A stretch of 36,520 bases of DNA from a virus. The translations under genes and the position numbers were made by a program. Below the pieces are notes generated by a model. It did no database searches. It worked only from the letters and a program-made list of their open reading frames with translations, and was not told the DNA's origin. Shown in pieces: positions 1 to 36,520 of this stretch (position 1 is the stretch's first letter; every line of letters starts with the position of its first letter). The DNA is taken from positions 1-36,520 of the IMG/VR virus record IMGVR_UViG_3300008266_000206; one strand, given 5' to 3'.

Positions 1-114
1 GAACGTATAGCCGAAGCCCGCGGCGAATTCGCAGGCCTGATCGTAACCGATAACGAAAACCAGGACGAAGCCGCCGACGTCGCGGCCGACGAAGAACCAG
101 GCGAAGACTGGAAA
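1..114. repeat. Terminal direct repeat, left copy (circular overlap)
   Basis: These 114 bases are identical to 36407-36520. Both copies lie inside the coding frame of the same primase-helicase, and joining the ends through one copy keeps that frame open. This is what an assembler leaves at the ends of a circular or circularly permuted molecule. A genuine short packaged terminal repeat is possible, but it would have to cut an essential gene in two, so I favour assembly overlap. Confidence 0.95.
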
Positions 115-1461
115 AGTAAACTAGAATTCGACCGCCTGGGTAACATGTACCCTACTATAAATAACATAGTACTGATCTTAGAAAACGACGTAGCGTTTAA
201 AAATAACATAGCCTACGACGACTTCGAAAAACGCGAAATAGCGCAGCGATCTTTACCCTGGCGTAAAGTTAACTACGGTACCAGGTTTTTAACTGACAGC
301 GACGACGATAATATAGAACACTACCTAGAAAGCGTATACAAAATAGCCGGTACGAAGTTATCGAAAGCGCTATCGGTTATAAGCGAACGAACTAAATTTC
401 ACCCTATTTGCAACTACCTAGACGGGCTGGCCTGGGATAAGAAGCCGCGGGTAGATACTTTATTCATAGACTACATGGGCGCAGAAGACAGCGACTATAC
501 CAGGGCAGTAACACGTAAAACGCTTTGCGCTGCAGTAGCCAGGGTATTTAACCCAGGCTGTAAATTCGACTACATGTTAACCTTTGTAGGCCCGCAGGGC
601 CTGGGCAAAAGTAGCCTAATAGGTAAACTGGGCCGGTACTGGTATAGCGATAGTTTTACAACGGTACAAGGTAAAGAAGCGTTCGAACAAGTGCAGGGCG
701 TCTGGATATTGGAAATAGCCGAACTATCGGCGCTGCGTAACGCCGACGTAGAAAGTATAAAGCATTTTATAACGAAGCGCGAAGACCGGTACCGCGTCGC
801 ATACGGTAAGCGGGTAGAGAATTTCCCGCGACAGTTCGTACCGTTTGGCAGTACGAATAAACTAGACTTCTTAAAAGATCGTACGGGAAATCGTAGGTTC
901 TGGCCGGTAAAGACCGGTACGCCCAGCAAAGACGTACATACAGAACTAACAGCCGAAGAAGTTAACCAGATATGGGCCGAAGCGTACGAACTTTTTATGG
1001 TCGGCGAACAGCTATTTTTAAGTAAAGAACTGGAAGCGGCCGCAAAGGTAGTACAGGAAAACCACGCAGAAGCCGACGAACGTATAGGCCTTATTATACA
1101 GTACCTAGATACGCCGCTACCTTTGAACTGGGCCAGTATGTCTATATACGAAAAGCGTAGCTATCTGGCCGGCGACGGGTTCGAATACGAAGGCGAACTG
1201 GAAGTACGGCAGCGGGTATGTGCCGCCGAAATTTACTGCGAAGTTCTGGGCGGTATGCAAAAAGATATGTCTAGCCATAATACCAGGTTTATACATGAGA
1301 TTTTAAGGGCCATACCTGGCTGGGCTGAATACGAAACGCGTACCGTTTTTAAAGGATATGGCAACCAAAAAGGCTACTACCGGTATACTACAGTAGACCC
1401 GAAAATAGTACTAAATACTACAGTAAGGCAGTTAAACGCCCGAACCAATTTACTACAGTAA
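1..1461 (+). CDS. VirE-family helicase half of primase-helicase (C-terminal part)
   Basis: This is the C-terminal part of a replicative primase-helicase whose N-terminus is at 35369-36520. The frame is open from base 1, and the first internal ATG (145) is not the real start. The P-loop lies around bases 589-615 (GPQGLGKSS). It is followed by the family signatures GKEAFEQVQG, WILEIAEL and IKHFITK, and by GNRRFWPV, the usual VirE/VapE (PF05272) endpoint. VirE-type proteins are SF3/AAA+-like helicases that unwind DNA at the phage fork. The last codons overlap the first ACTACAGTA iterons, so the end of the gene is part of the candidate origin. The joined protein would be about 832 residues. Family assignment is strong; origin-specific action is inference. 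Confidence 0.9.
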   Translation, partial: ERIAEARGEFAGLIVTDNENQDEAADVAADEEPGEDWKSKLEFDRLGNMYPTINNIVLILENDVAFKNNIAYDDFEKREIAQRSLPWRKVNYGTRFLTDSDDDNIEHYLESVYKIAGTKLSKALSVISERTKFHPICNYLDGLAWDKKPRVDTLFIDYMGAEDSDYTRAVTRKTLCAAVARVFNPGCKFDYMLTFVGPQGLGKSSLIGKLGRYWYSDSFTTVQGKEAFEQVQGVWILEIAELSALRNADVESIKHFITKREDRYRVAYGKRVENFPRQFVPFGSTNKLDFLKDRTGNRRFWPVKTGTPSKDVHTELTAEEVNQIWAEAYELFMVGEQLFLSKELEAAAKVVQENHAEADERIGLIIQYLDTPLPLNWASMSIYEKRSYLAGDGFEYEGELEVRQRVCAAEIYCEVLGGMQKDMSSHNTRFIHEILRAIPGWAEYETRTVFKGYGNQKGYYRYTTVDPKIVLNTTVRQLNARTNLLQ

Positions 1462-1533
1462 CTACAGTAATACTACAGTAAAAACGTATCTACTGTAGTA
1501 TCGTAAAACCTTATCTATAAAGCGTTCTAGCCG

Positions 1534-1558
1534 AAATACTACAGTAACTACAGTAAAA
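1534..1558 (+). repeat. 25-bp inverted repeat, left arm
   Basis: Contains two overlapping units (TACTACAGTAA then ACTACAGTAA) flanked by AAA and AAA. Its reverse complement is found base for base at 1653-1677. Confidence 0.9.
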
Positions 1559-1652
1559 TAACTATAAAGTATAAAAATAAGGTTTTAAGGGTAAATAGGG
1601 TATATAGTAGCCCCTAGCTGCCCTAATAGGAAAAAGTGTTAAGATTTTACGT

Positions 1653-1677
1653 TTTTACTGTAGTTACTGTAGTATTT
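1653..1677 (-). repeat. 25-bp inverted repeat, right arm
   Basis: Perfect reverse complement of 1534-1558. It lies immediately upstream of the nuclease-helicase gene pair, where a bound protein could also block or recruit transcription. Confidence 0.9.
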
Positions 1678-1694: not shown

Positions 1695-1970
1695 ATGAAA
1701 GAAAACAAAATAGAAGTATTTTTGAAGGCCGAAGTAGAAAAGCTGGGCGGGCTATGTATTAAATTTCTGGCTACCTATTTTACCGGTATACCAGATCGTT
1801 TAGTACTACTACCTGGCGGCCGTATGTACTTCGTAGAACTAAAGGCACCAGGTAAGAAACCGGCCCGCCGGCAGCCGTACGTAATAGCACTACTGCAGAA
1901 GCTAGGTTTTAACGTTTTGGTTATAGATACGATAGATAAAGTAAACGCGTTTATATTATGGGTAAAGTAA
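1695..1970 (+). CDS. VRR-NUC domain nuclease
   Basis: A 91-residue stand-alone VRR-NUC (PF08774) nuclease of the PD-(D/E)XK superfamily. The core is visible: GGLCIKF, then TGIPDRLVLLPGGRMYFVELKAP, in which the Asp of PDR and the Glu-x-Lys of VELK are the expected metal-binding/catalytic residues, followed by a Q-rich helix and a closing beta strand (NVLVID). The length is normal for phage versions. The start ATG follows an A-rich leader, and the end overlaps the helicase gene by 13 bases, so the two are translationally coupled. In many phages this nuclease is encoded beside an SNF2-type helicase and a VirE primase-helicase, as here. It probably acts on branched DNA during replication or recombination; the exact substrate is unknown. 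Confidence 0.88.
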   Translation: MKENKIEVFLKAEVEKLGGLCIKFLATYFTGIPDRLVLLPGGRMYFVELKAPGKKPARRQPYVIALLQKLGFNVLVIDTIDKVNAFILWVK

Positions 1971-3358
1971 AACAGTTCGTACCGCATGACTACCAGGCGC
2001 ATGCCATACAGCATATACTAGATAACGACGAAGCCGGCCTATTTTTAGACATGGGCCTAGGTAAAACCGTTATAACTTTAACGGCTTTAAATACTATGCT
2101 ATTCGATACGTTCGAAATAAGTAAACCGCTGGTTATAGCGCCGAAAAAAGTAGTAGAACATACCTGGCACGAAGAAGTATCTAAATGGCAACACCTAAAA
2201 GACCTGCGGCTAGTTAGAATTATGGGTAACGAACGGCAACGTATAGAAGCATTTAGAACCAGGGCCGATATTTATATAATAAGCCGCGATAACATAGAAT
2301 GGCTGGTTACATACCTGCAGGGCGCCTGGCCGTTCGATACCCTGGTACTGGATGAACTTAGCAGCTTTAAGAACCCGTCTTCGCGAAGGTTTAAAGCAGT
2401 ACGAATAATTCGACCACTTGTTAAAAAAGTTATAGGCCTTACCGGTACACCAGCGCCGAACGGGCTAGTAGACTTATGGGCGCCGGTATATTTACTAGAC
2501 CAGGGTAAACGCCTGGGCGCTACTTTTCCTTCATACCGCGAAAAGTATTTCAGAAAAGAAAACGAATACAGCCCACACAGTAAGTACATTATACACAACG
2601 GCGACGAAGTTATAGGCGCAGACTACTACAAAAATAAAATACTAAACAAGATCAGCGACATTTGTATAAGTATGAAGAAAGAAGACTACCTAGACCTACC
2701 GCCACGCGTAGACGTAGTTAAAAAAATAGACCTACCGGCTAAAATTATGCAGAAGTATAAAGACTTCGAACGCAGCCTGGTAATGCAAATAACAGACGAA
2801 AACGATATAACCGCAGTAAACGCGACGGTATTAATAGGTAAGCTGCTACAGTTCGCGAACGGCGCAATATACGACGCCGATAAAGTCTGGCACGAAGTAC
2901 ATACCGAAAAACTAGACGCCCTGGCCGAAGACATAGAAGCCGCGAACGGGAACCCTATACTAATTTTCTACCAGTATAAACATGACGTAGAACGAATTAT
3001 GCAGCGCTTTAAAAGTTTAAAGCCGGTATTTTTAAAAGGCGCTGCAGACGTAGACGCCTGGAATCGTAAAGAAATACCAATACTGGTAACGCATACGGCC
3101 AGCGCTGGGCATGGGTTAAACATGCAGTACGGCGGCCACTTTATAAGCCACTTCGGCACCGGCTTTAACTTAGAATGGTACCTGCAGGGCTGCGCCAGGC
3201 TAGACCGGCAGGGCCAGGTATACCCAGTTACGAACAGTAGATTAATAGTTACGGGTACCCAGGACGAAGGCGCGCTGGCCTGCCTAGACGATAAGACGAA
3301 CGAACAAGACTACGTTATGTCGGCCGTTAAAGCAATATTCAAACGCTATAAAAAATAG
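1958..3358 (+). CDS. SNF2-type DEAD/DEAH helicase
   Basis: A 466-residue superfamily 2 helicase. An N-terminal Q-like region (HDYQAHAI) is followed by the P-loop DMGLGKT (about residues 31-37), a DEAH-like box DELS (132-135), motif III-like LTGTPAPNG (161-169) and a second RecA domain ending in the arginine-finger motif QGCARLDRQGQ (about 410-420). This is the compact phage SNF2/DEAD helicase that travels with VRR-NUC, DUF2800, DUF2815, PolA and VirE. It likely remodels forks or recombination intermediates using ATP. The start overlaps the nuclease gene; the TAG stop is followed by a promoter for the next gene. Confidence 0.92.
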   Translation: MGKVKQFVPHDYQAHAIQHILDNDEAGLFLDMGLGKTVITLTALNTMLFDTFEISKPLVIAPKKVVEHTWHEEVSKWQHLKDLRLVRIMGNERQRIEAFRTRADIYIISRDNIEWLVTYLQGAWPFDTLVLDELSSFKNPSSRRFKAVRIIRPLVKKVIGLTGTPAPNGLVDLWAPVYLLDQGKRLGATFPSYREKYFRKENEYSPHSKYIIHNGDEVIGADYYKNKILNKISDICISMKKEDYLDLPPRVDVVKKIDLPAKIMQKYKDFERSLVMQITDENDITAVNATVLIGKLLQFANGAIYDADKVWHEVHTEKLDALAEDIEAANGNPILIFYQYKHDVERIMQRFKSLKPVFLKGAADVDAWNRKEIPILVTHTASAGHGLNMQYGGHFISHFGTGFNLEWYLQGCARLDRQGQVYPVTNSRLIVTGTQDEGALACLDDKTNEQDYVMSAVKAIFKRYKK

Positions 3359-3362
3359 TCTA

Positions 3363-3396
3363 TTTTGTAGTATAAGAAATAAAATTAACTTTGTGT
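3363..3396 (+). promoter_or_regulatory. Bacteroidota-type promoter for the sigma-like gene
   Basis: TTTTG at 3363-3367, an 18-bp spacer, then TAACTTTG at 3386-3393 fit the Bacteroidota -33/-7 consensus (TTTG ... TAnnTTTG). The -7 element ends only three bases before the ATG at 3397, so transcription would begin at or just inside the start codon. That implies a leaderless or near-leaderless transcript. Confidence 0.6.
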
Positions 3397-3954
3397 ATGA
3401 ACGCGCGAAACCTTATAACGGCCATATACGTTTCGAACGAAGTAAAAGAAGTACTGCAGCGCCTAGAACCTGCAGACCTTCGCGACGATATAAAGCAGCA
3501 TGTTTTTACCGAACTGCTAGTAATGGAAGAAGGTTTTATAGTTGATCTACATACCCGCGGTAAGCTAAAGCATTTTATTGTAAAAATGCTTTACAATACT
3601 TCGAAATGGCGCGACCGTTCGGCGTTTAAAAAACAGTACGGCTTTTTAGAAACTTCGGTAGAAGACTTCGAAAGAACCGCGGCAAATGAAGACGATATAG
3701 ACGAAGACGGTAAATTGTATTTTAGTACAGTAGTTACCGGTAGTATCGAAAATAACGAACGTAGCCAGAAAGAACTAGTAGAAGAAATACTACTGGCGCT
3801 TAAAAATATGTACTGGTATAAGGCCGAAGTATTTAAATTATACGTACGCCTGGGTACATACCAGAAAGTAGCAGACGCGACCGGTATAAATTTGTCTTCG
3901 ATCTTTCAAACAGTACGGCAGGCTAAAAATGAAATTAAAACCCATATAAAATAA
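3397..3954 (+). CDS. Sigma-factor-like HTH protein
   Basis: A 185-residue protein. Its C-terminal part (about 140-185) reads as a sigma region 4-like helix-turn-helix: KAEVFKLYVRLGTYQKVADATGINLSSIFQTVRQAKNEI has the layout of an ECF/sigma-70 recognition helix pair. The N-terminal half is helical and charged and could be a region 2-like part, but I see no firm motif there. I chose ATG 3397 over the TTG at 3391 because the latter lies inside the -7 promoter element. It sits alone behind a promoter at the border between replication genes and the terminase/structural operon, which suits a regulator of late transcription. That role is inference; a plain HTH DNA-binding protein is the alternative. 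Confidence 0.65.
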   Translation: MNARNLITAIYVSNEVKEVLQRLEPADLRDDIKQHVFTELLVMEEGFIVDLHTRGKLKHFIVKMLYNTSKWRDRSAFKKQYGFLETSVEDFERTAANEDDIDEDGKLYFSTVVTGSIENNERSQKELVEEILLALKNMYWYKAEVFKLYVRLGTYQKVADATGINLSSIFQTVRQAKNEIKTHIK

Positions 3955-3955
3955 T

Positions 3956-4255
3956 ATGAAAAAGCAAACAACTACAACCGCCGAAAAGCTGGTATTTTTA
4001 AACGACCAGCTATTCTTAAAAGAACGCGTAGACAATAGCGTAGACGTACACCCGTCTACCGCGGTTATCGAACAGTTCGAAAACCTGGCGCTAACGATCA
4101 GCCCTAAAAACGATTTTAGCTGGCGCGGGTGCCAGTCATGCGTAAACCACGTAGTAAAGTTCGTTTACGATAATCTGGGCCGCCTGGGCCTGGGCCTGGC
4201 AGAAGGTAAGATCGTAGAAGTAAAAAAAGCTACGGGTTTAAAAAACGATAATTAA
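3956..4255 (+). CDS. Hypothetical protein with a CxxC motif
   Basis: A 99-residue soluble protein of unknown function, starting two bases after the previous stop. The middle contains WRGCQSCVNHVVKFVYDN, with one CxxC pair and a His that could bind metal or form a disulfide. The protein ends in a lysine-rich tail. Its position between the sigma-like gene and the small terminase, with only 5 bases to the next start, places it in the same operon. I do not recognise a family. Confidence 0.7.
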   Translation: MKKQTTTTAEKLVFLNDQLFLKERVDNSVDVHPSTAVIEQFENLALTISPKNDFSWRGCQSCVNHVVKFVYDNLGRLGLGLAEGKIVEVKKATGLKNDN

Positions 4256-4260
4256 AAACT

Positions 4261-4710
4261 ATGGGCGTACATAAGAAAATAGAAGACCCAGAAATACTAT
4301 GGCAGCACTTTTTAGACTACGTAGATAAGGTAAAAGAAAAACCCATGCTGGTACATGACTTCGTCGGTAAAGACGGCGACAGCGTATACCGTAAAAAAGA
4401 AAAGCCGTTAACCTTTGTAGGTTTTCAGAACTACTTAGACGACATGGGCGTAATTTCGGACGTTACCGACTATTTCGAAAATAAAGAAGGGCGCTACGGG
4501 CTTTTCGTCCGTATCTGTTCGCGTATAAAGCGAACGATAGCCGAAGACCAGATAACCGGCGGCATGGTCGGCGTATATAATACTTCGATAACGCAGCGCC
4601 TAAACGGCCTGGTAGATAAAAGCGAAGTAGCGGTAAAGACCGAACAACCTTTATTTCCAGACGCGCCGGCGAAGCCGCCAGCCGAAGAAGACGAAGACGA
4701 TTTTATGTAA
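4261..4710 (+). CDS. Terminase small subunit (gp3-like)
   Basis: A 149-residue DNA-recognition subunit of the packaging motor. The pattern LWQHFLDYVDKVKEKP, then a mid-protein FENKEGRYGLF and the long helix ICSRIKRTIAEDQITGGMVGVYN followed by TQRLNGLVDKSEV matches the P22 gp3-like small terminase family that is common in Bacteroidota phages. It lies three small genes upstream of the large terminase. The C-terminus, EEDEDDFM, is an acidic tail ending in an aromatic residue, shared with the SSB-like protein at 29896 and the protein at 15188; this is unusual for a small terminase. Confidence 0.82.
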   Translation: MGVHKKIEDPEILWQHFLDYVDKVKEKPMLVHDFVGKDGDSVYRKKEKPLTFVGFQNYLDDMGVISDVTDYFENKEGRYGLFVRICSRIKRTIAEDQITGGMVGVYNTSITQRLNGLVDKSEVAVKTEQPLFPDAPAKPPAEEDEDDFM

Positions 4711-5181: not shown

Positions 5182-6516
5182 ATGGCGTTCGTACGTACTA
5201 CGGCCATAAATAAAATACTAGCTATGCGCGCCCGAAAAAAGGTAGTGCAGGGTTCTACGTCTGCAGGTAAGACGTACGGCATAGTACCGATACTAATAGA
5301 TAAGGCCTGCAAAATACCCAGGCTGCGTATAACGATCGTAGCCGAAACTATACCGGCCGTTAAAGACGGGCCGGTACGTATTTTTAAGAACGTTATGTAC
5401 GATACGGGCCGCTGGGTAGAAGACCGCTGGCTAGGCAACCCGCTACAGTATACTTTTAAAAACGGTTCTGTTATAGAATTTAGGGCGTTCGATAGCGTAG
5501 GCAAAGCGAAGGTAGCCGACAAACGCGACGTACTGTATATGGTCGAATGCAATAACATAACGTACGAAATAGCTAGCGCCTTAATGATAAGAAGTAAAGA
5601 AGTTTATATGTGCTTTAACCCAGAAGCCGAATTCTGGGCGCATACCGAAGTACTAACAGAACCGAACAGCGAACTACTGCTACTAACGTATAAAGATAAC
5701 GAAGCCTGCCCAGCCGAAACGATCGAAGACCTGGTTATAAAAATGAAGAAGGCGTACTACGACCCAGAAGGCGACGCCGACGACCCGAAGAACGTAAAGA
5801 ACGCGTACTGGGCGAACTGGTGCAAAGTTTATATTTTCGGCCAGCTGGGTATACTGCAGGGCGTAGTATACGAAAACTGGGCCCAGGTACCCGAACTACC
5901 GAAAGACCCGAAGACCGGTAAAATACTGGCCGAACTTATAGCCAGCGGGCTAGACTTCGGGTTCGTAAAGCCGGCGGCTATGTTAGACGTATACATGTAC
6001 CGCGGCGAACTATACGTAGACGAACGCATATATAAAACCGGTTTATCGAACGCGGCACTAGTAGACGAATTTAAACGCCTGGGCGTTAACAAAGGTACCT
6101 GCATAGTAGCCGATAGCGCAGAACCGAAAAGTATAGCCGACCTGCAGAACGCGGGCTACTATATCGAAGAAGCCGAAAAAGGCCCAGACAGCATACGCGC
6201 CGGTATTAAGATACTGCAGCAATATAAAATAAACGTTACGCAGCGATCTTTAAACCTTATAAAAGAACTGCGCCGGTACAAATGGGCGAAGAAGAAAAGC
6301 GGCGAAGAACTGGAAATACCGGTTAAATTTCTAGACCACTTACTAGACGCGCTGCGCTACGTAGCGCTGAATAAACTTTCACTATTTACGCCGTCTGGCG
6401 AATATTCGTTTATAGGTGGCAGCGAAGAAGAAGACCAGTTTTTACCGGACGCTACGCCAGAAAATATAGACGACGTTAACGACCGCTATAGCTTTGCCGG
6501 CGGCGACGAAGACTAA
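5182..6516 (+). CDS. terL: Terminase large subunit
   Basis: A 444-residue ATPase-nuclease of the DNA packaging motor. The Walker A is QGSTSAGKT (residues 23-31), and the Walker B region is VLYMVE with the catalytic Glu at about 122. The C-terminal RNase H-like nuclease shows the expected acidic residues in GLDFGF (D258), VADSAEPKSI (D311) and HLLDALRY (D389). The length and domain order are normal for phage-type Terminase_3/6 families. It is preceded by the small terminase and three micro-genes. The C-terminus is acidic (GGDED). Confidence 0.95.
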   Translation: MAFVRTTAINKILAMRARKKVVQGSTSAGKTYGIVPILIDKACKIPRLRITIVAETIPAVKDGPVRIFKNVMYDTGRWVEDRWLGNPLQYTFKNGSVIEFRAFDSVGKAKVADKRDVLYMVECNNITYEIASALMIRSKEVYMCFNPEAEFWAHTEVLTEPNSELLLLTYKDNEACPAETIEDLVIKMKKAYYDPEGDADDPKNVKNAYWANWCKVYIFGQLGILQGVVYENWAQVPELPKDPKTGKILAELIASGLDFGFVKPAAMLDVYMYRGELYVDERIYKTGLSNAALVDEFKRLGVNKGTCIVADSAEPKSIADLQNAGYYIEEAEKGPDSIRAGIKILQQYKINVTQRSLNLIKELRRYKWAKKKSGEELEIPVKFLDHLLDALRYVALNKLSLFTPSGEYSFIGGSEEEDQFLPDATPENIDDVNDRYSFAGGDED

Positions 6517-6528
6517 AAAAAATACAGT

Positions 6529-6636
6529 ATGAAATATTTAACACGTTTACTTCTTTATGTCGCTGTAGGTATTACGGCCTTTACGGCTGGGCTAGCTGCG
6601 GCGTATGCCTTCTGGTACATGGCGCTACGCCCGTAG
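6529..6636 (+). CDS. Small membrane protein
   Basis: A 35-residue ORF, MKYLTRLLLY followed by one long hydrophobic helix (VAVGITAFTAGLAAAYAFW), ending at TAG. It starts 12 bases after the large terminase stop, behind an A-rich leader. It could be a signal-anchor micro-protein; no family recognised. Confidence 0.5.
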   Translation: MKYLTRLLLYVAVGITAFTAGLAAAYAFWYMALRP

Positions 6637-6684
6637 CATAAAAGAAGCCCGCGTAGAAACGCAGGCCGGTTAACAAAACGCTAT

Positions 6685-6747
6685 ATGAGAAAAATCTTAC
6701 AGCCCAAAGCTAAGAAAAAATACTACAATTTTCGCCACTACTTTTAA
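6685..6747 (+). CDS. Possible 20-residue basic peptide
   Basis: ATG 6685 to TAA 6745-6747 encodes a very basic peptide (MRKILQPKAKKKYYNFRHYF). Its stop is immediately followed by the ATG of the next gene. The last third is part of a 22-bp sequence repeated at 17403-17424, so conservation here may reflect a DNA/RNA signal rather than the peptide. Low confidence as a real gene. Confidence 0.25.
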   Translation: MRKILQPKAKKKYYNFRHYF

Positions 6748-11634: not shown

Positions 11635-13734
11635 ATGCCGAACGAAGAAATAAACATAAAAGCGAAACTGCAGGTAGATACCGGCGACAGCGCCGCAAAT
11701 ATCGGCAAAGTAAAAGGCGAACTGGGCGGCGCGGGTAAAGAAGCGCAGGGTACCGGCGGTATGTTTAATAAACTTAAAAGCGAACTGGGCGGCGTCGCTG
11801 GGCCTGCGGCTGCAGCTACCGGTAGCCTGGGCGGCTTAAACGGCATGCTAAACGTACTAAAGGCGAACCCGATAATAGGCGTATTTGTTTTAATAGCGTC
11901 GCTGGTAGCTGCGCTATTTAGCCACTTTTCGAAAATGGAAAAAGTAAGCGACGCGCTAGGTAAGGCCTGGGCGTCTTTGTCCGGTATCTTTGAAGTGTTT
12001 ATGAATAATATTTTGAAGCCGTTAATAGACGCCTTCGTAACGCTGGTAGGCTGGATAACCGACGCGGCTACCTGGATAACGGGCTTATTTTCGCCGGCTA
12101 CGGCCGCAGCTGCAAAAGCGCTGGGTAGCCTAGAAGAACAAATGGACGACCTAAACGACGTAGAAGCGAAGAACAATATAACCAGGGCCGAAAGTAACAG
12201 ACGGCTACAAGAAGCCCGCGACGCGGCGGCCGACGCGAATATACCAATAAAAGAACGCATAAAATTTATATCCGAAGCAGCAAAGATCGAAAAAGAAGCG
12301 CTAGAAGAAAGTGTTAAACTTAATATGGATAGGGCGCGCATAGTACTACAGCAAATAGGTATAGAACTGGGCGTACGTCAGGAACTAATAGACAAGATAC
12401 GCGAAGGCAGCGCCGCAGAACTAAAGGCGGCCCGCGAAGAAATATATAACCTGGACGAAGTAGATAAAGAAAAAATAAAGAAATTCGACGAATACTTTAT
12501 AGCCGCAGAAGACCAGGGCGCCCAGCTGGCGAAGGTTAGTAAAAAAACAGAAAAGCAAATAACCCAGCTAGAAAAAGAAGAACAGAAAGAACGGGCCGAC
12601 GCGGCCAAAGCTGCAGCCGACGCAGCCAAAGCGGCCCGCGAAAAAGCAGCGGCCGAACGGGCTAAAGCGCTGGCGAATTTACGGGCCTTCGAAGCCCAGG
12701 CGTTAAAGAAAAGCCGCGACCTGCAGCTAGGCGAAATAACCGAAGCCCAGGAAAAAGAATTAACCGTACTTATGAACGGGTACCAGGACGAAGTAGCCGC
12801 GAATAAACGGGCGCTGGCCGAAAACCGAATAACCCGTACGCAGTTCTTTACTTTAATGACTGCAGACCTGCAGCTATTCAAACAGCGCGAAGCGGCCATA
12901 AATAAAAAGTTCGTAGAAGACGAAAAGAAAAAACAAGACGCCGACCAGAAAGAAAAACAGAAAAAGGCTGCAGCTGATCTACTAGAAAAGAATAAAGCGG
13001 CGGCGGCCGAATTCGCTATAATTCGTAAACTGGCGCTGGATAAAATAAACTTTCAAATGTCGCAAAATACCCGCGACCTGGCGCTAACGAAAAAACTTTT
13101 AAATGATAAGAAGGCGGCACTATCGGCGAACTTCTTAGCTGAAATACTACTAACGAAAAAGACGAACGCAGAAAAGCTGGCGGCCGAACAGAAGTATAAA
13201 GAAGACATGGCCGGCATACAAGCGGCCAAAGATGAAATAAAGCAAAAAGAAGTAGCCAGTACCCAGGCCCAGGTATCGGCGGTAGGCGATCTACTAGCCC
13301 AGGCGGCCGAAGTAGCCGGTAAACATACGGTAGCCGGTAAAGCGCTAGCCATAGCGTCTACGGCTATTAATACATACCAGGCGGCTATGGGCGCGTTCCG
13401 CGGTATGGTATCTACTATACCTGGGCCGGTAGGTATTGCCCTGGGCGTAGTAGCTGCAGGTCTGGCCGCGGCCGTCGGCGTAGCTAATATAAAAAAGATC
13501 GTATCTACCCAGGTACCAGGCCAGGGCGGTAGCGGCGGTTCGGTACCGTCTGTAGCAGAAGTACCGGCACCAGTTACGCCGCAGCGATCTAGTACGCAGT
13601 TAAACGCGGCGTCTATCCAGGGCGTCGGTAATGCAGCGGCCGGCGGCGTTAATAGGGTATTCGTTCTAGACGCCGACGTACGCAATAACGCAGAACGTAC
13701 GGCCCGTATAAATAGGGCGGCGCGCCTGGGCTAG
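11635..13734 (+). CDS. Tape measure protein
   Basis: A 699-residue protein. It has a Gly/Ala-rich N-terminus, two hydrophobic stretches (about 80-105, IIGVFVLIASLVAALF, and about 115-160), a very long Ala/Lys/Glu-rich coiled coil (about 170-540) and a C-terminal hydrophobic segment (GPVGIALGVVAAGLAAAVGV). That is the standard tape measure plan: the protein sets tail length and helps DNA cross the membrane. With the usual rule of about 0.15 nm per residue, the tail would be roughly 100 nm. Unusually, it lies upstream of the capsid genes. Two large antisense reading frames here are shadows. Confidence 0.88.
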   Translation: MPNEEINIKAKLQVDTGDSAANIGKVKGELGGAGKEAQGTGGMFNKLKSELGGVAGPAAAATGSLGGLNGMLNVLKANPIIGVFVLIASLVAALFSHFSKMEKVSDALGKAWASLSGIFEVFMNNILKPLIDAFVTLVGWITDAATWITGLFSPATAAAAKALGSLEEQMDDLNDVEAKNNITRAESNRRLQEARDAAADANIPIKERIKFISEAAKIEKEALEESVKLNMDRARIVLQQIGIELGVRQELIDKIREGSAAELKAAREEIYNLDEVDKEKIKKFDEYFIAAEDQGAQLAKVSKKTEKQITQLEKEEQKERADAAKAAADAAKAAREKAAAERAKALANLRAFEAQALKKSRDLQLGEITEAQEKELTVLMNGYQDEVAANKRALAENRITRTQFFTLMTADLQLFKQREAAINKKFVEDEKKKQDADQKEKQKKAAADLLEKNKAAAAEFAIIRKLALDKINFQMSQNTRDLALTKKLLNDKKAALSANFLAEILLTKKTNAEKLAAEQKYKEDMAGIQAAKDEIKQKEVASTQAQVSAVGDLLAQAAEVAGKHTVAGKALAIASTAINTYQAAMGAFRGMVSTIPGPVGIALGVVAAGLAAAVGVANIKKIVSTQVPGQGGSGGSVPSVAEVPAPVTPQRSSTQLNAASIQGVGNAAAGGVNRVFVLDADVRNNAERTARINRAARLG

Positions 13735-21226: not shown

Positions 21227-23850
21227 AATTTTTAAAACTGGCCGTACTTTTTTTACTGGCGGCGCTTATACTAACTTTAACAACTTCGGCCCAGGTAGGT
21301 AACGATACTACGAAGTACTTTACTTCTAAAGACTATGGCTGGCTATGGCAGCGCGGCAAATTTCGCCAGCTGGTAGCGCCCAGCGATACCGTATACAATA
21401 AACAGGGCGTAGCCGTTAAAGGCGGTACCTGGTACTTCGGTAATGGTACTAGCTGGGCCAGCATGGGTTCGGGCGGCGGCGGTTCTACCGATACTACCAG
21501 TCTAAGTAGCCGCATAGACGCCAGGGTAAAGTATACCGATACTTCGGGTATGTTATCGGCATACCAGACAGCGTTAAACGCCAGGATAACGACAGCTACG
21601 GCCGCAGCTACGTACATACCGTTTACTGGGCTGGGCGGTTCGTCTTTATTCGGTAATACTACGGCTGGCGGCAATTTAACGCTACAAAGCACTTCGAACG
21701 CTACGAAGGGTAAAATACTATTCGGTACGTCGGCGTACGATCAACTTAATAACAGATTAGGTATAGGTCTGGCGAACCCTGCGAATACGTTAGACGTAGT
21801 GGGTACTGGCGTATTTACGGGTAGTCTGGCGTTCGGTAGCCAGCTGGTAGCGCAGCCGGCCAGCGGTAACTGGACGGACGGCTTTTTTAACATTGACGCT
21901 ATCGGCGGCATGGCGCAGATAGGCGACTATACAAATAACTGGAATAACACATACATAACGGTAGACGATCAAAACGACTATAGTATAAATTTATCAGCGC
22001 CAAACGGCGCTATAAACGTATACGGCCCTATATCGGCGCAGGGTTTATATTTAACTGGGCAGCTAGACGCGGACGGCCAAAATAATCTAAACGGCCTTAC
22101 TGACATATATGGCAACTTAGACCTACGTAGCACTACTACCGCATACGGTACATTTAACTTTAACGCTTTAACAGCGTCTTTACCTTTAAAGCTAGACGCG
22201 TCTAAAAACGCTACGGCGGCCGCTATAAATTTAAGCGGTAGCGAAGTAACCGGAAACCTGCCAGTATCGAAACTAAACAGCGGTACCGGCGCTAGCGGTA
22301 CTACGTTCTGGCGCGGCGACGGTACCTGGTCTACGCCTGCCGGTTCTTCTGGCTGGGCGTTAACGGGTAATAGTATAACTGCAGGTACCGATAAAATAGG
22401 TACTACAAATAACGCGGCACTACCTTTTATAACTAATAGTGTGGAAACTATGCGCCTGGATAGCCTGGGCGCCAGGTTATTTTTAAAAAATGGCGTAGAC
22501 CCGTTACTATCTTTAAAGCAAAGTTTTTCTAATCAAGAGTACCAGTTAAGGCTGGGCGTAGGTACGGGTCTGGCTAGTCAAAAATATAACGTATACGACG
22601 CTACGGCAGGTAAGATAATGTATTCGGCCGCCGCTAGCTACGGCGCAGGCGGCGCCCAGTTCGTAGTAGGTAGTAGTGCGCCGTACGCGGCCAGTACGCT
22701 TTATGTAGGTAATGGCGGTAGCGGCGGTACCAATATAGACGCCCAGCCAGATAGTACCGTAGGCGACGAAGCAAATATCGAAATAATGAAAAGCGACTAC
22801 AGTAGCGGCGAAGGGCTGGCGTTACGCGGCTGGGGTAACGTAGGCGTTATAGGCGGCGGTACCGTTATGGGCTATACTAAACGTAACCTGGGCGTACTAG
22901 ATTTTACAAACGAATACAATTTAATACGCGTATCTAATAACCGGTCGCTACGTATCGGTACGAATAATACCGAATACATGGTACTGGATAGCATAGGCCG
23001 GCTAAATTTAAACCAGTTAACCGCGTCGCGCCTGGTAGGTACCGACGCCAGTAAAAACCTAGCTACGTTAACGGCTACCACTACCGAAGCGAACTACCTA
23101 TCTGGCGTAACGTCTGAACTGCAGCCCCAGCTAGACGGTAAAAGCGGGCTAGGTTTTAAGCGTTTTAAATTACACTACGGTAACGGTAACGGTACCGGCG
23201 TAACTACGTTAGGCTGGACAGTTAGCGCCGTAGGTACTGCGACTACGTTAAACGTAGCGACTACGAACCGGTATACGCAGGCCGCAGGTATTGAATACCT
23301 GGTAACTACACCGGCTACGAATGCTATAGCCGGTTTTCGTGAAACGGCGCAACAGAACTTTTTTGGTAATAGCGCAGGTAACGGCGGTTTTACTTTTGTA
23401 TGCCGGTTCGGCCCAGCTACCGGCGTAGCGACTACTACTACCCGCTGCTTTACCGGTATGACCGCGTCGGGTGGCGTACCTACAGACGTAGAACCTTCTA
23501 CGCTAGTTAACGCCGTCGGCGCTGGCTGGGATGCCGCAGACGCTAATATACAATTTATTTGCTGGAACGGCGCCGGCGGCGCTACTAAAATAGACCTGGG
23601 TATACCCGTACCTACGGTAGACCGTACCAGCTTATACGAACTTAAAATGGTAGTACAACCTAACAGTAATACCGTTACGTATACATTTACCGATCTACAA
23701 GCCGGCGGCGCCAGCGTTACCGGTTCTACGTCTACCAGTACGCCTAGCACAAATATACTACTATCGGCTAGGGGCTGGATAAGCGCCGGCGGTACGTCTT
23801 CGGTAATAGGGTACGGGTTAAAGCATGTATACGTAGAATCTAATTTTTAA
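21223..23850 (+). CDS. Receptor-binding tail fibre with N-terminal signal peptide
   Basis: An 875-residue fibre-like protein. Residues 1-23 are a textbook Sec signal peptide: MKFLK, a long hydrophobic core (LAVLFLLAALILTL) and a TSA|Q cleavage site. The start is firm because it overlaps the previous stop (ATGA). The shaft includes NNRLGIGLANPANTLDV (near 177), the GIG...P...LDV repeat of Bacteroidota fibre/surface proteins, and VTGNLPVSKL...TFWRGDGTW (near 345-370). The C-terminal 230 residues are a Gly/Thr-rich beta domain, probably receptor- or sugar-binding. A cleavable export signal on a virion protein is odd and suggests capture of a host surface gene or an exported form. Confidence 0.8.
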   Translation: MKFLKLAVLFLLAALILTLTTSAQVGNDTTKYFTSKDYGWLWQRGKFRQLVAPSDTVYNKQGVAVKGGTWYFGNGTSWASMGSGGGGSTDTTSLSSRIDARVKYTDTSGMLSAYQTALNARITTATAAATYIPFTGLGGSSLFGNTTAGGNLTLQSTSNATKGKILFGTSAYDQLNNRLGIGLANPANTLDVVGTGVFTGSLAFGSQLVAQPASGNWTDGFFNIDAIGGMAQIGDYTNNWNNTYITVDDQNDYSINLSAPNGAINVYGPISAQGLYLTGQLDADGQNNLNGLTDIYGNLDLRSTTTAYGTFNFNALTASLPLKLDASKNATAAAINLSGSEVTGNLPVSKLNSGTGASGTTFWRGDGTWSTPAGSSGWALTGNSITAGTDKIGTTNNAALPFITNSVETMRLDSLGARLFLKNGVDPLLSLKQSFSNQEYQLRLGVGTGLASQKYNVYDATAGKIMYSAAASYGAGGAQFVVGSSAPYAASTLYVGNGGSGGTNIDAQPDSTVGDEANIEIMKSDYSSGEGLALRGWGNVGVIGGGTVMGYTKRNLGVLDFTNEYNLIRVSNNRSLRIGTNNTEYMVLDSIGRLNLNQLTASRLVGTDASKNLATLTATTTEANYLSGVTSELQPQLDGKSGLGFKRFKLHYGNGNGTGVTTLGWTVSAVGTATTLNVATTNRYTQAAGIEYLVTTPATNAIAGFRETAQQNFFGNSAGNGGFTFVCRFGPATGVATTTTRCFTGMTASGGVPTDVEPSTLVNAVGAGWDAADANIQFICWNGAGGATKIDLGIPVPTVDRTSLYELKMVVQPNSNTVTYTFTDLQAGGASVTGSTSTSTPSTNILLSARGWISAGGTSSVIGYGLKHVYVESNF

Positions 23851-26131: not shown

Positions 26132-26380
26132 ATGAGAAAAAATAAAGTAAACGCCTACGGCCCACTACGGTTAAAGATACCCGCAGCTACCAGGCTACTA
26201 ATCGAAGCGCATAAAACAGACGGCGACTTCGCAGCGATCAGTAAAGAAATATTCGGCAGTAACGAAAATCGGCAGCTAATAAAAGCGGCGGTAGATAATG
26301 GCGAAGGCCGCGAAAGAATCGTTAACGCTATCGTTAAATTTTACAACAGAAAAAAACTGGCTACTAAAAAACTATCTTAA
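26132..26380 (+). CDS. Early hypothetical basic protein
   Basis: An 82-residue, lysine/arginine-rich helical protein, the first gene behind the early promoter. Segment DGDFAAISKEIFGSNENRQLIKAAV could form a helix-turn-helix, so a DNA-binding regulator is possible. No family recognised. Confidence 0.7.
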   Translation: MRKNKVNAYGPLRLKIPAATRLLIEAHKTDGDFAAISKEIFGSNENRQLIKAAVDNGEGRERIVNAIVKFYNRKKLATKKLS

Positions 26381-35368: not shown

Positions 35369-36520
35369 ATGCCCGAAAAAATTTACGACGGCGAACTAGA
35401 TATAGCCGTAGGCAAAAGCCGAAAAGAAACGAACTGGCGTAACAAAAGCTGGCTATGGTCTACCCTGGTAGATAAGCTAAAGACTACGCATTATACCGCC
35501 GAAACGCATACCGAATACATGCAGGCGAAGAAGACGCGCCAGGATGAAATAAAAGACATAGGCGGTTTCGTCGGCGGGTACCTGCAGGGCGGCCGCAGAA
35601 AGTCTACTAACGTTTTACACCGGCAACTAATTACGCTGGATATAGATTTTAGTACCGCCGATTTTTGGTTCGATTTTACCTGCGTATATGGCTGCGCTGC
35701 GGTATTGTATTCTACGCATAAACACGCGCCAGAAACGCCCAGGCTGCGACTACTGATACCTTTAGACCGGCCAGTACGCCCAGACGAATACGAAGCCATA
35801 GCCCGCTACATAGCTGGCGAAATAGATATAGAAGTATTCGACCCGACTACCTTCCAGCCCGAACGTTTAATGTACTGGCCCAGCACTTCGAAAGACGGTA
35901 CATACTTATACGAAGTACAAGACGGCCCGTTCGTCTGCGCCGACGACATACTAGCCCGTTATCATAACTGGCAAGATAGTAGCGCCTGGCCCGTTAGCGA
36001 ACGCGTAGATAAGGTACTACGTCGCGACATGGTAAAGCAGGGCGACCCGTTAGAAAAAGGCGGCGTAATAGGCGCGTACTGCAGAACGCATACGATACAC
36101 GAAGTAATAGAAAAACACCTGGCCGACGTATACGAACCCTGCGACATAGAAGACCGGTATACGTACCTGCAGGGTAGTACCGCTGCAGGCCTTATAACCT
36201 ACGACGATAAGTTCGCGTATTCGCATCATGGCAGCGACCCTATAAGCGGTAAACTTTGCAACGCCTTCGACCTGGTACGTATACATAAATTCGGGCTAAA
36301 GGATGAAGACGCCCGCGAAAACACGCCCAGCAATAAGCTACCGTCTTATTTAGCTATGACAGAATACGCAGTAAAAGACGCCGACGTACGGCTACTACTA
36401 ACGAACGAACGTATAGCCGAAGCCCGCGGCGAATTCGCAGGCCTGATCGTAACCGATAACGAAAACCAGGACGAAGCCGCCGACGTCGCGGCCGACGAAG
36501 AACCAGGCGAAGACTGGAAA
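35369..36520 (+). CDS. AEP-type primase half of primase-helicase (N-terminal part)
   Basis: The first 384 codons of an 832-residue primase-helicase that continues at base 115 of the window. The archaeo-eukaryotic primase signature is visible: ITLDIDF (Asp91 and Asp93), YSTHKH (the S-x-H motif at 115-117), PRLRLLIPL, and FDPTTFQPERLMYWPS with Asp158. It synthesises primers for PolA, while the C-terminal VirE helicase opens the fork. The ATG at 35369 follows an A/T-rich leader. The acidic linker (about 365-384) joins the two halves. Confidence 0.85.
   Translation, partial: MPEKIYDGELDIAVGKSRKETNWRNKSWLWSTLVDKLKTTHYTAETHTEYMQAKKTRQDEIKDIGGFVGGYLQGGRRKSTNVLHRQLITLDIDFSTADFWFDFTCVYGCAAVLYSTHKHAPETPRLRLLIPLDRPVRPDEYEAIARYIAGEIDIEVFDPTTFQPERLMYWPSTSKDGTYLYEVQDGPFVCADDILARYHNWQDSSAWPVSERVDKVLRRDMVKQGDPLEKGGVIGAYCRTHTIHEVIEKHLADVYEPCDIEDRYTYLQGSTAAGLITYDDKFAYSHHGSDPISGKLCNAFDLVRIHKFGLKDEDARENTPSNKLPSYLAMTEYAVKDADVRLLLTNERIAEARGEFAGLIVTDNENQDEAADVAADEEPGEDWK
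36407..36520. repeat. Terminal direct repeat, right copy (circular overlap)
   Basis: Exact copy of 1-114. Removing one copy gives a circle of 36,406 bp and restores a single 832-codon primase-helicase frame that runs 35369-36520 and then continues from base 115 to 1461. Confidence 0.95.

Follow-up and report, generated by a model that had tools for sequence, protein, structure and literature searches.

A putative iteron origin behind a phage VapE-type primase-helicase gene, with repeat units that covary with the helicase tail

A compact array of 9-bp iterons (1386-1677) directly behind a VapE-type primase-helicase gene is very probably the replication origin of the phage that carries it, and the primase-helicase is very probably its own initiator, predicted to read the iterons through a C-terminal winged helix. 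The VapE-type helicase is proposed as the initiator because the tail of this protein and the sequence of the iteron unit covary among related loci. All coordinates are positions in the window, by which we mean the whole 36,520-nt stretch of IMGVR_UViG_3300008266_000206 that was analysed.

The array and its genomic setting

The first and last 114 bp of the window (1-114 and 36407-36520) were identical, and the contig represents a complete phage genome of 36,406 bp, circular or circularly permuted. Because of this overlap of the ends, the VapE gene spans the contig join and encodes a protein of 832 amino acids, the helicase part of which matched PF05272 (E 2.8e-81; Table 1). The gene lies in a replication module with the order exonuclease, ssDNA-binding/annealing protein, PolA, VapE-type primase-helicase, nuclease and SNF2 helicase.

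The initial annotation had described about ten repeat units, direct and inverted, running from the end of the helicase gene into the gap before the VRR-NUC gene, and this description held: ten exact copies of the 9-mer ACTACAGTA were packed into 287 bp, seven on the plus and three on the minus strand, ahead of a nuclease gene that starts at 1695. A preceding T was present in seven array copies, giving TACTACAGTA, a near-palindrome of the form TACT-AC-AGTA. The array begins 3 bp past the last conserved helicase codon (codon 807, ending at about 1383), and the final ~25 VapE codons, which lack conservation, are iteron sequence in translation. The left group of units contains a tandem pair and inverted sites, which were matched in many relatives. 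The two inner tandem pairs, 1538/1547 (+) and 1656/1665 (-), each with 9-bp spacing, together form the 25-bp perfect inverted pair noticed before (1534-1558 and 1653-1677), which was confirmed as 100% complementary with arms 94 nt apart; the spacer that it encloses was, as claimed, AT-rich (69% against 54% for the genome), with a C-rich patch (GCCCC...GCCC) in mid plus strand.

Outside the array, exact ACTACAGTA occurred in the 36.5-kb window only at 22796 and 32224, and these lone copies are probably due to chance. One of the two lies inside the DNA polymerase gene. When up to one mismatch was allowed, 32 matches were found versus 13.7 expected (0 of 100 shuffles reached 32), and 730-bp control stretches of the window held at most four copies of any 9-mer. 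As a single strand the 25-bp stem folded strongly (z -5.8), but a cruciform signal was rejected, as the opposed iteron pairs account for this fold. A hairpin in the centre of the spacer was likewise rejected as a general feature, with z<-2 in 15 of 65 loci and a z of 0.4 in the window. An Rfam search for structured RNA gave no match, a blastn search found no plasmid relatives of the region, and the window unit searched alone in viral contigs returned many scattered matches. The main genes share one strand, GC skew was weak and mostly positive, and its minimum was uninformative for the origin.

Table 1. Features of the putative origin and flanking genes in the window
Feature	Position	Strand	Evidence or detail
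VapE-type primase-helicase, N-terminal primase-type part	35369..36520	+	phrog_256, phrog_9765; continues at 115 over the join
VapE-type primase-helicase, helicase part (PF05272), proposed initiator	115..1461	+	
C-terminal domain with predicted winged helix	1072..1404	+	pLDDT 91.7; best match 7pds
Wing segment, model residues 403-423, proposed iteron reader	1321..1383	+	secondary structure, variability, unit covariation
Iteron array, putative replication origin	1386..1677	.	ten exact ACTACAGTA: seven direct (1387, 1417, 1452, 1461, 1472, 1538, 1547), three inverted (1491, 1656, 1665)
Two outer iterons, within helicase gene 3' end	1387..1425 (1387-1395, 1417-1425)	+	
Left iteron group	1452..1499	.	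tandem pair 1452-1460/1461-1469 (+), 1472-1480 (+), 1491-1499 (-)
Inner left tandem iteron pair	1538..1555	+	9-bp spacing
AT-rich spacer, 94 bp, proposed melting region	1559..1652	.	69% AT; C-rich patch in mid plus strand
Inner right tandem iteron pair	1656..1673	-	opposite orientation to left pair
VRR-NUC-type endonuclease gene, downstream of array	1695..1970	+	phrog_93 endonuclease, E 1.4e-24
SNF2-type helicase gene	1958..3358	+	PF00176, E 6.8e-23

Arrays and their layout in relatives

Viral relatives were gathered first by VRR-NUC and then by VapE, giving 103 distinct regions downstream of the VapE core, and each was tested for a repeated 8-mer against 200 dinucleotide shuffles (a home-made EM motif finder gave unstable registers, and exact 8-mers with shuffles were used instead). 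A repeat array followed the VapE gene in 77 of the 103 regions at p<0.01 and in 85 at p<0.05. The 26 regions without one at p<0.01 had a divergent, relocated or absent array; the signal was marginal in three relatives of the window (L205, L212 and L007), and no array was found in the stretches fetched for phages BT34 and P2559Y. An independent set of 80 loci from bacterial and archaeal genomes (mostly Bacillota, with a few Bacteroidota and others) was chosen by helicase similarity alone. At least four copies of one 8-mer were present in the 420 bp behind the VapE core at 49 of the 74 usable genome loci, and in 2 of 781 control windows taken at these loci.

The unit varied by phage (TGTTACCAA, TGTCTACAA, TGTCAACAA, TGTAAACAA, GGCAACAAA, GTATACAC and others), and a common layout was found around it. 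Among the 82 loci that had five or more sites, neighbours on the same strand were spaced by 9 bp in 123 of 349 cases, the largest gap was flanked by sites of opposite orientation at 76 loci (median gap ~105 bp), and the spacer in that gap was richer in AT than its own locus at 81. The common layout is thus one of 9-bp tandem pairs followed by opposed sites over a ~105-bp AT-rich spacer, with a unit sequence that is not conserved, and the window (110 bp, +/-) matches it. Where the initial annotation had looked to related phages for the same place, spacing and unit, the array and its geometry proved to be kept and the unit sequence did not. Even the closest relatives by helicase core (~55-61%; L046, L203, L001, L211, L208, L206 and L207) had arrays with different units, and no second phage among the related loci had the window's own unit with a matching tail, the nearest being ACTATGCGA in L206.

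The position of the array was not invariant. In L008, L011 and L041 VapE is followed at once, or after a short array-free gap, by the nuclease gene, and the array lies ~2.2 kb downstream, behind the SNF2 helicase gene (at about 12166-12473, 6357-6710 and 12526-12892, respectively), with opposed sites over a gap of ~110-120 bp. In Staphylococcus phage P240 (L297) the helicase-endonuclease gap at 3820-4161 carries a similar kind of array, with unit TGATGCAAC, and no origin is annotated there. The region 3104-3742 of Clostridioides phage phiCDKH02 (L295) is empty of annotation, yet holds an array of type III (defined below) followed by nuclease-start-like sequence.

Spacers also shared a strand asymmetry. 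The plus strand of 46 non-redundant spacers was A-rich and almost devoid of C over the first third and contained 24-33% C at 40-70% of its length; in 41 of the 46, the 45-80% segment held more C than G. This asymmetry may serve to mark where primers start or which strand is chosen.

Covariation of the helicase tail with the iteron unit

The helicase part of the window protein was predicted with a pLDDT of 92.5, and its best solved relative was PriRep1 with dsDNA (PDB 7pds, 'Similar to D. nodosus vapE'), which aligned over 416 residues with a Z of 37.5 and 36% identity; a profile match (E 2.3e-125) ran through the C-terminal end including the wing. PriRep1 belongs to the same helicase family and has a C-terminal domain of the same kind, but its solved chain has 477 residues and is without the N-terminal primase-type part of the 832-residue phage protein. 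When the C-terminal domain was searched alone, 7pds was the only confident match; the rest were weak and included many winged-helix domains. From these weak matches and the order of helices and strands, the domain is predicted to be a winged helix. The variable tail (model residues 403-423) forms short strands after the last helix in the model, and this wing is variable at most positions from 404 to 414 and at 417 and 422, with W403, Y415, G416 and Q418 nearly fixed.

A natural swap experiment was provided by 22 contigs close to phiCDKH02, whose helicases are nearly identical save for the last ~26 residues. Between L241, L249 and L253, helicase DNA was 96-100% identical and fell to 64-70% in the last ~70 bp; identity was 60-71% in the left array, 79-92% in the spacer and ~99% in the nuclease gene. 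Type I tails (...WERYDKRLRFGKIYGSQRAFIRKK) paired with unit TGTTACCAA, type II tails (...WEPHSSHLRFGKVYGKQRAYIRTK) with TGTCTACAA and type III tails (...WISYNGNLRFGKIYGRQRAYVRKS) with TGTCAACAA. This pairing was pure in 21 of the 22 contigs, and the sole exception, L252 (2380-2720), is a natural hybrid origin, in which a type III tail is followed by a mixed array of four type III and three type II units, the right part being type II sequence. The tail-array block moves horizontally, because in L260 the gene body has diverged from that of L249 (92-96% over most of its length) but the tail and left array are near-identical to it (98.6-99.4%).

The association extended across deeper divergence. 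In a first, redundant set the partial correlation with unit similarity was 0.234 for the tail (0/500 permutations) and 0.159 for the helicase core (1/500). After redundancy was removed and genome loci were added (97 loci), the tail given the core retained an r of 0.213 (0/500), and the core given the tail fell to 0.040 (102/500), no longer significant. The 41 genome loci alone gave 0.176 (0/500) and 0.016 (197/500), respectively. In a held-out test, the unit of each genome locus was taken from its nearest viral locus: choosing by tail gave a mean similarity of 0.641 (random 0.582, p 0.003), and choosing by core gave 0.596 (p 0.87). Covariation over deep divergence is statistically clear and of modest size (r ~0.2). 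At the finest scale, two Clostridia-type loci resemble each other closely in their tails, with a YGR/YGK difference among the changes, and have units that are one base apart, L273 having YGR with CGGATACA and L270 YGK with CGGAAACA. The link between YGR and GGATACA was seen in L262, L268, L271, L273 and L274, and more weakly, with one copy, in L272; noticed post hoc in the data, it is a lead. The array, its layout and conservation, the covariation and the predicted fold are all read from sequence.

Proposed mechanism, alternatives and significance

Iteron origins are recognised by short repeats in regular register, an AT-rich neighbouring region and a cognate initiator encoded by the replicon. 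The window has ten exact copies with 9-bp pairs, a spacer whose AT excess has its counterpart in the relatives, and the VapE gene directly upstream, with covariation of tail and unit in relatives. Comparison with relatives thus strongly supports the iteron origin suggested by the initial annotation, and for the initiator, which it could not name, the covariation points to the adjacent VapE-type helicase and suggests that this protein binds iterons sequence-specifically. In the window itself the reader of ACTACAGTA is assigned by homology, because the window's unit was found in none of the related loci.

By analogy with PriRep1, SaPI Rep and SCCmec Cch2, we infer a course of iteron binding, double-ring loading, melting and priming. 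The C-terminal winged helix of VapE would bind the 9-bp iterons as double-stranded DNA, and the opposed inner pairs flanking the ~94-bp AT-rich spacer would position two helicase rings face to face. The spacer would then open, the rings would load onto single strands and unwind outwards, and the N-terminal primase-type domain would prime synthesis for the phage PolA. Reading of the unit would fall mainly to the wing, made up of the last ~25 conserved residues, and because of this the wing and iterons would change jointly with the geometry and helicase core kept.

Known systems share parts of this arrangement. In lambdoid phages the gene of the initiator O and its iterons are also adjacent, with specificity co-inherited, but O is not a helicase, recruits the host helicase and has the iterons inside its own gene. 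The iteron sets of the SaPI ori, in work of 2007 attributed to Ubeda, reportedly surround an AT-rich region. SaPI Rep, a self-loading helicase, uses its C-terminal domain to recognise iterons that immediately follow its own gene, and the isolated C-terminal domain of SCCmec Cch2 binds its downstream iterons (PMC7581432). The window array likewise lies directly downstream of a helicase gene, but SaPI Rep belongs to other helicase families (DUF927 or D5 type), and SaPI5 Rep (7ola/7om0) was a distant fold match to the window helicase (Z 13.6-14.1, 11% identity). In the PLE satellites of Vibrio cholerae phages, the DNA-binding domain of RepA_N covaries with the origin via repeated swaps, with specificity shown experimentally (PMC8263062); that initiator is unrelated, has an N-terminal specificity domain and uses three ~30-bp iterons. 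The PER element of Streptococcus thermophilus phage Sfi21, as far as its mention in PMC6356513 goes, would be a comparable origin, short, noncoding and located within the replication module of a phage.

The initial annotation had also offered the array as an operator, at which a phage regulator would govern the nuclease-SNF2 operon, whether or not the site also acts as an origin. The array does lie directly upstream of that operon, and initiators can autoregulate, so that a transcriptional side effect is possible. The operator reading is nevertheless disfavoured, because the array relocates behind the SNF2 gene in L008, L011 and L041, with none before the nuclease, as an origin could move, and because no Bacteroidota-type promoter match lies near the array; the unit moreover covaries with the helicase tail where the nuclease is ~99% identical. 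We consider this reading very unlikely. The sole match to that promoter consensus in the window, at 3364-3393, lies just before the ORF at 3391, and about one would be expected by chance. A packaging, partition or recombination site is extremely unlikely: repeats of this sort also act as partition sites, but the array is linked to the helicase and not to terminase or partition genes, no such repeats lie near the terminase small subunit gene at 4261, and its unit follows the helicase tail.

Other explanations accept an origin, or the covariation, and dispute the reader. Many iteron origins employ a separate initiator, and the iterons could be read by a small phage protein, host DnaA or the nuclease, with the helicase recruited. 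The small basic proteins at 26132, 34487 and 34942, earlier put forward as candidates, were rejected as initiators, as a search of the VapE/VRR-NUC viral loci detected no relative of them; the nuclease is almost unchanged where units differ, the units show a free variation that sets them apart from a host DnaA box, and the helicase tail is the part that changes. A separate reader is very unlikely on this evidence. Tail and array are also adjacent and are swapped as a block, and could change together merely as neighbours in one recombining segment, without the tail being the reader. This is very improbable as well, as the differences run in concert through every copy, also in the right-hand pair past a spacer that is 79-92% alike, covariation holds across unrelated cores in two sets and the held-out test, and variability is concentrated in wing positions between fixed structural residues.

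An origin read by the VapE wing would bear on many phages, since hundreds of named phages have VapE-family helicases (675 matching records), and the four named-phage records examined had no origin annotation. A simple search rule follows: 9-bp tandem pairs that face each other over ~105 bp of AT-rich DNA are to be sought immediately past the VapE core or downstream of the SNF2 gene. Applied to Staphylococcus, Clostridioides, Paenibacillus and Bacteroidota phages, this rule predicts origins directly. The unit-tail pairs are a natural data set on DNA reading by the wing, with near single-residue contrasts (L273 vs L270), and a source of orthogonal replicons. More tentatively, the VapE wing (the last ~25 residues) may be a portable DNA-reading module that forms, with the ~300-bp origin, specificity cassettes exchanged by recombination, giving many orthogonal replication types. 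If so, cassette swapping would possibly let phages escape origin decoys, satellites or origin-directed nucleases.
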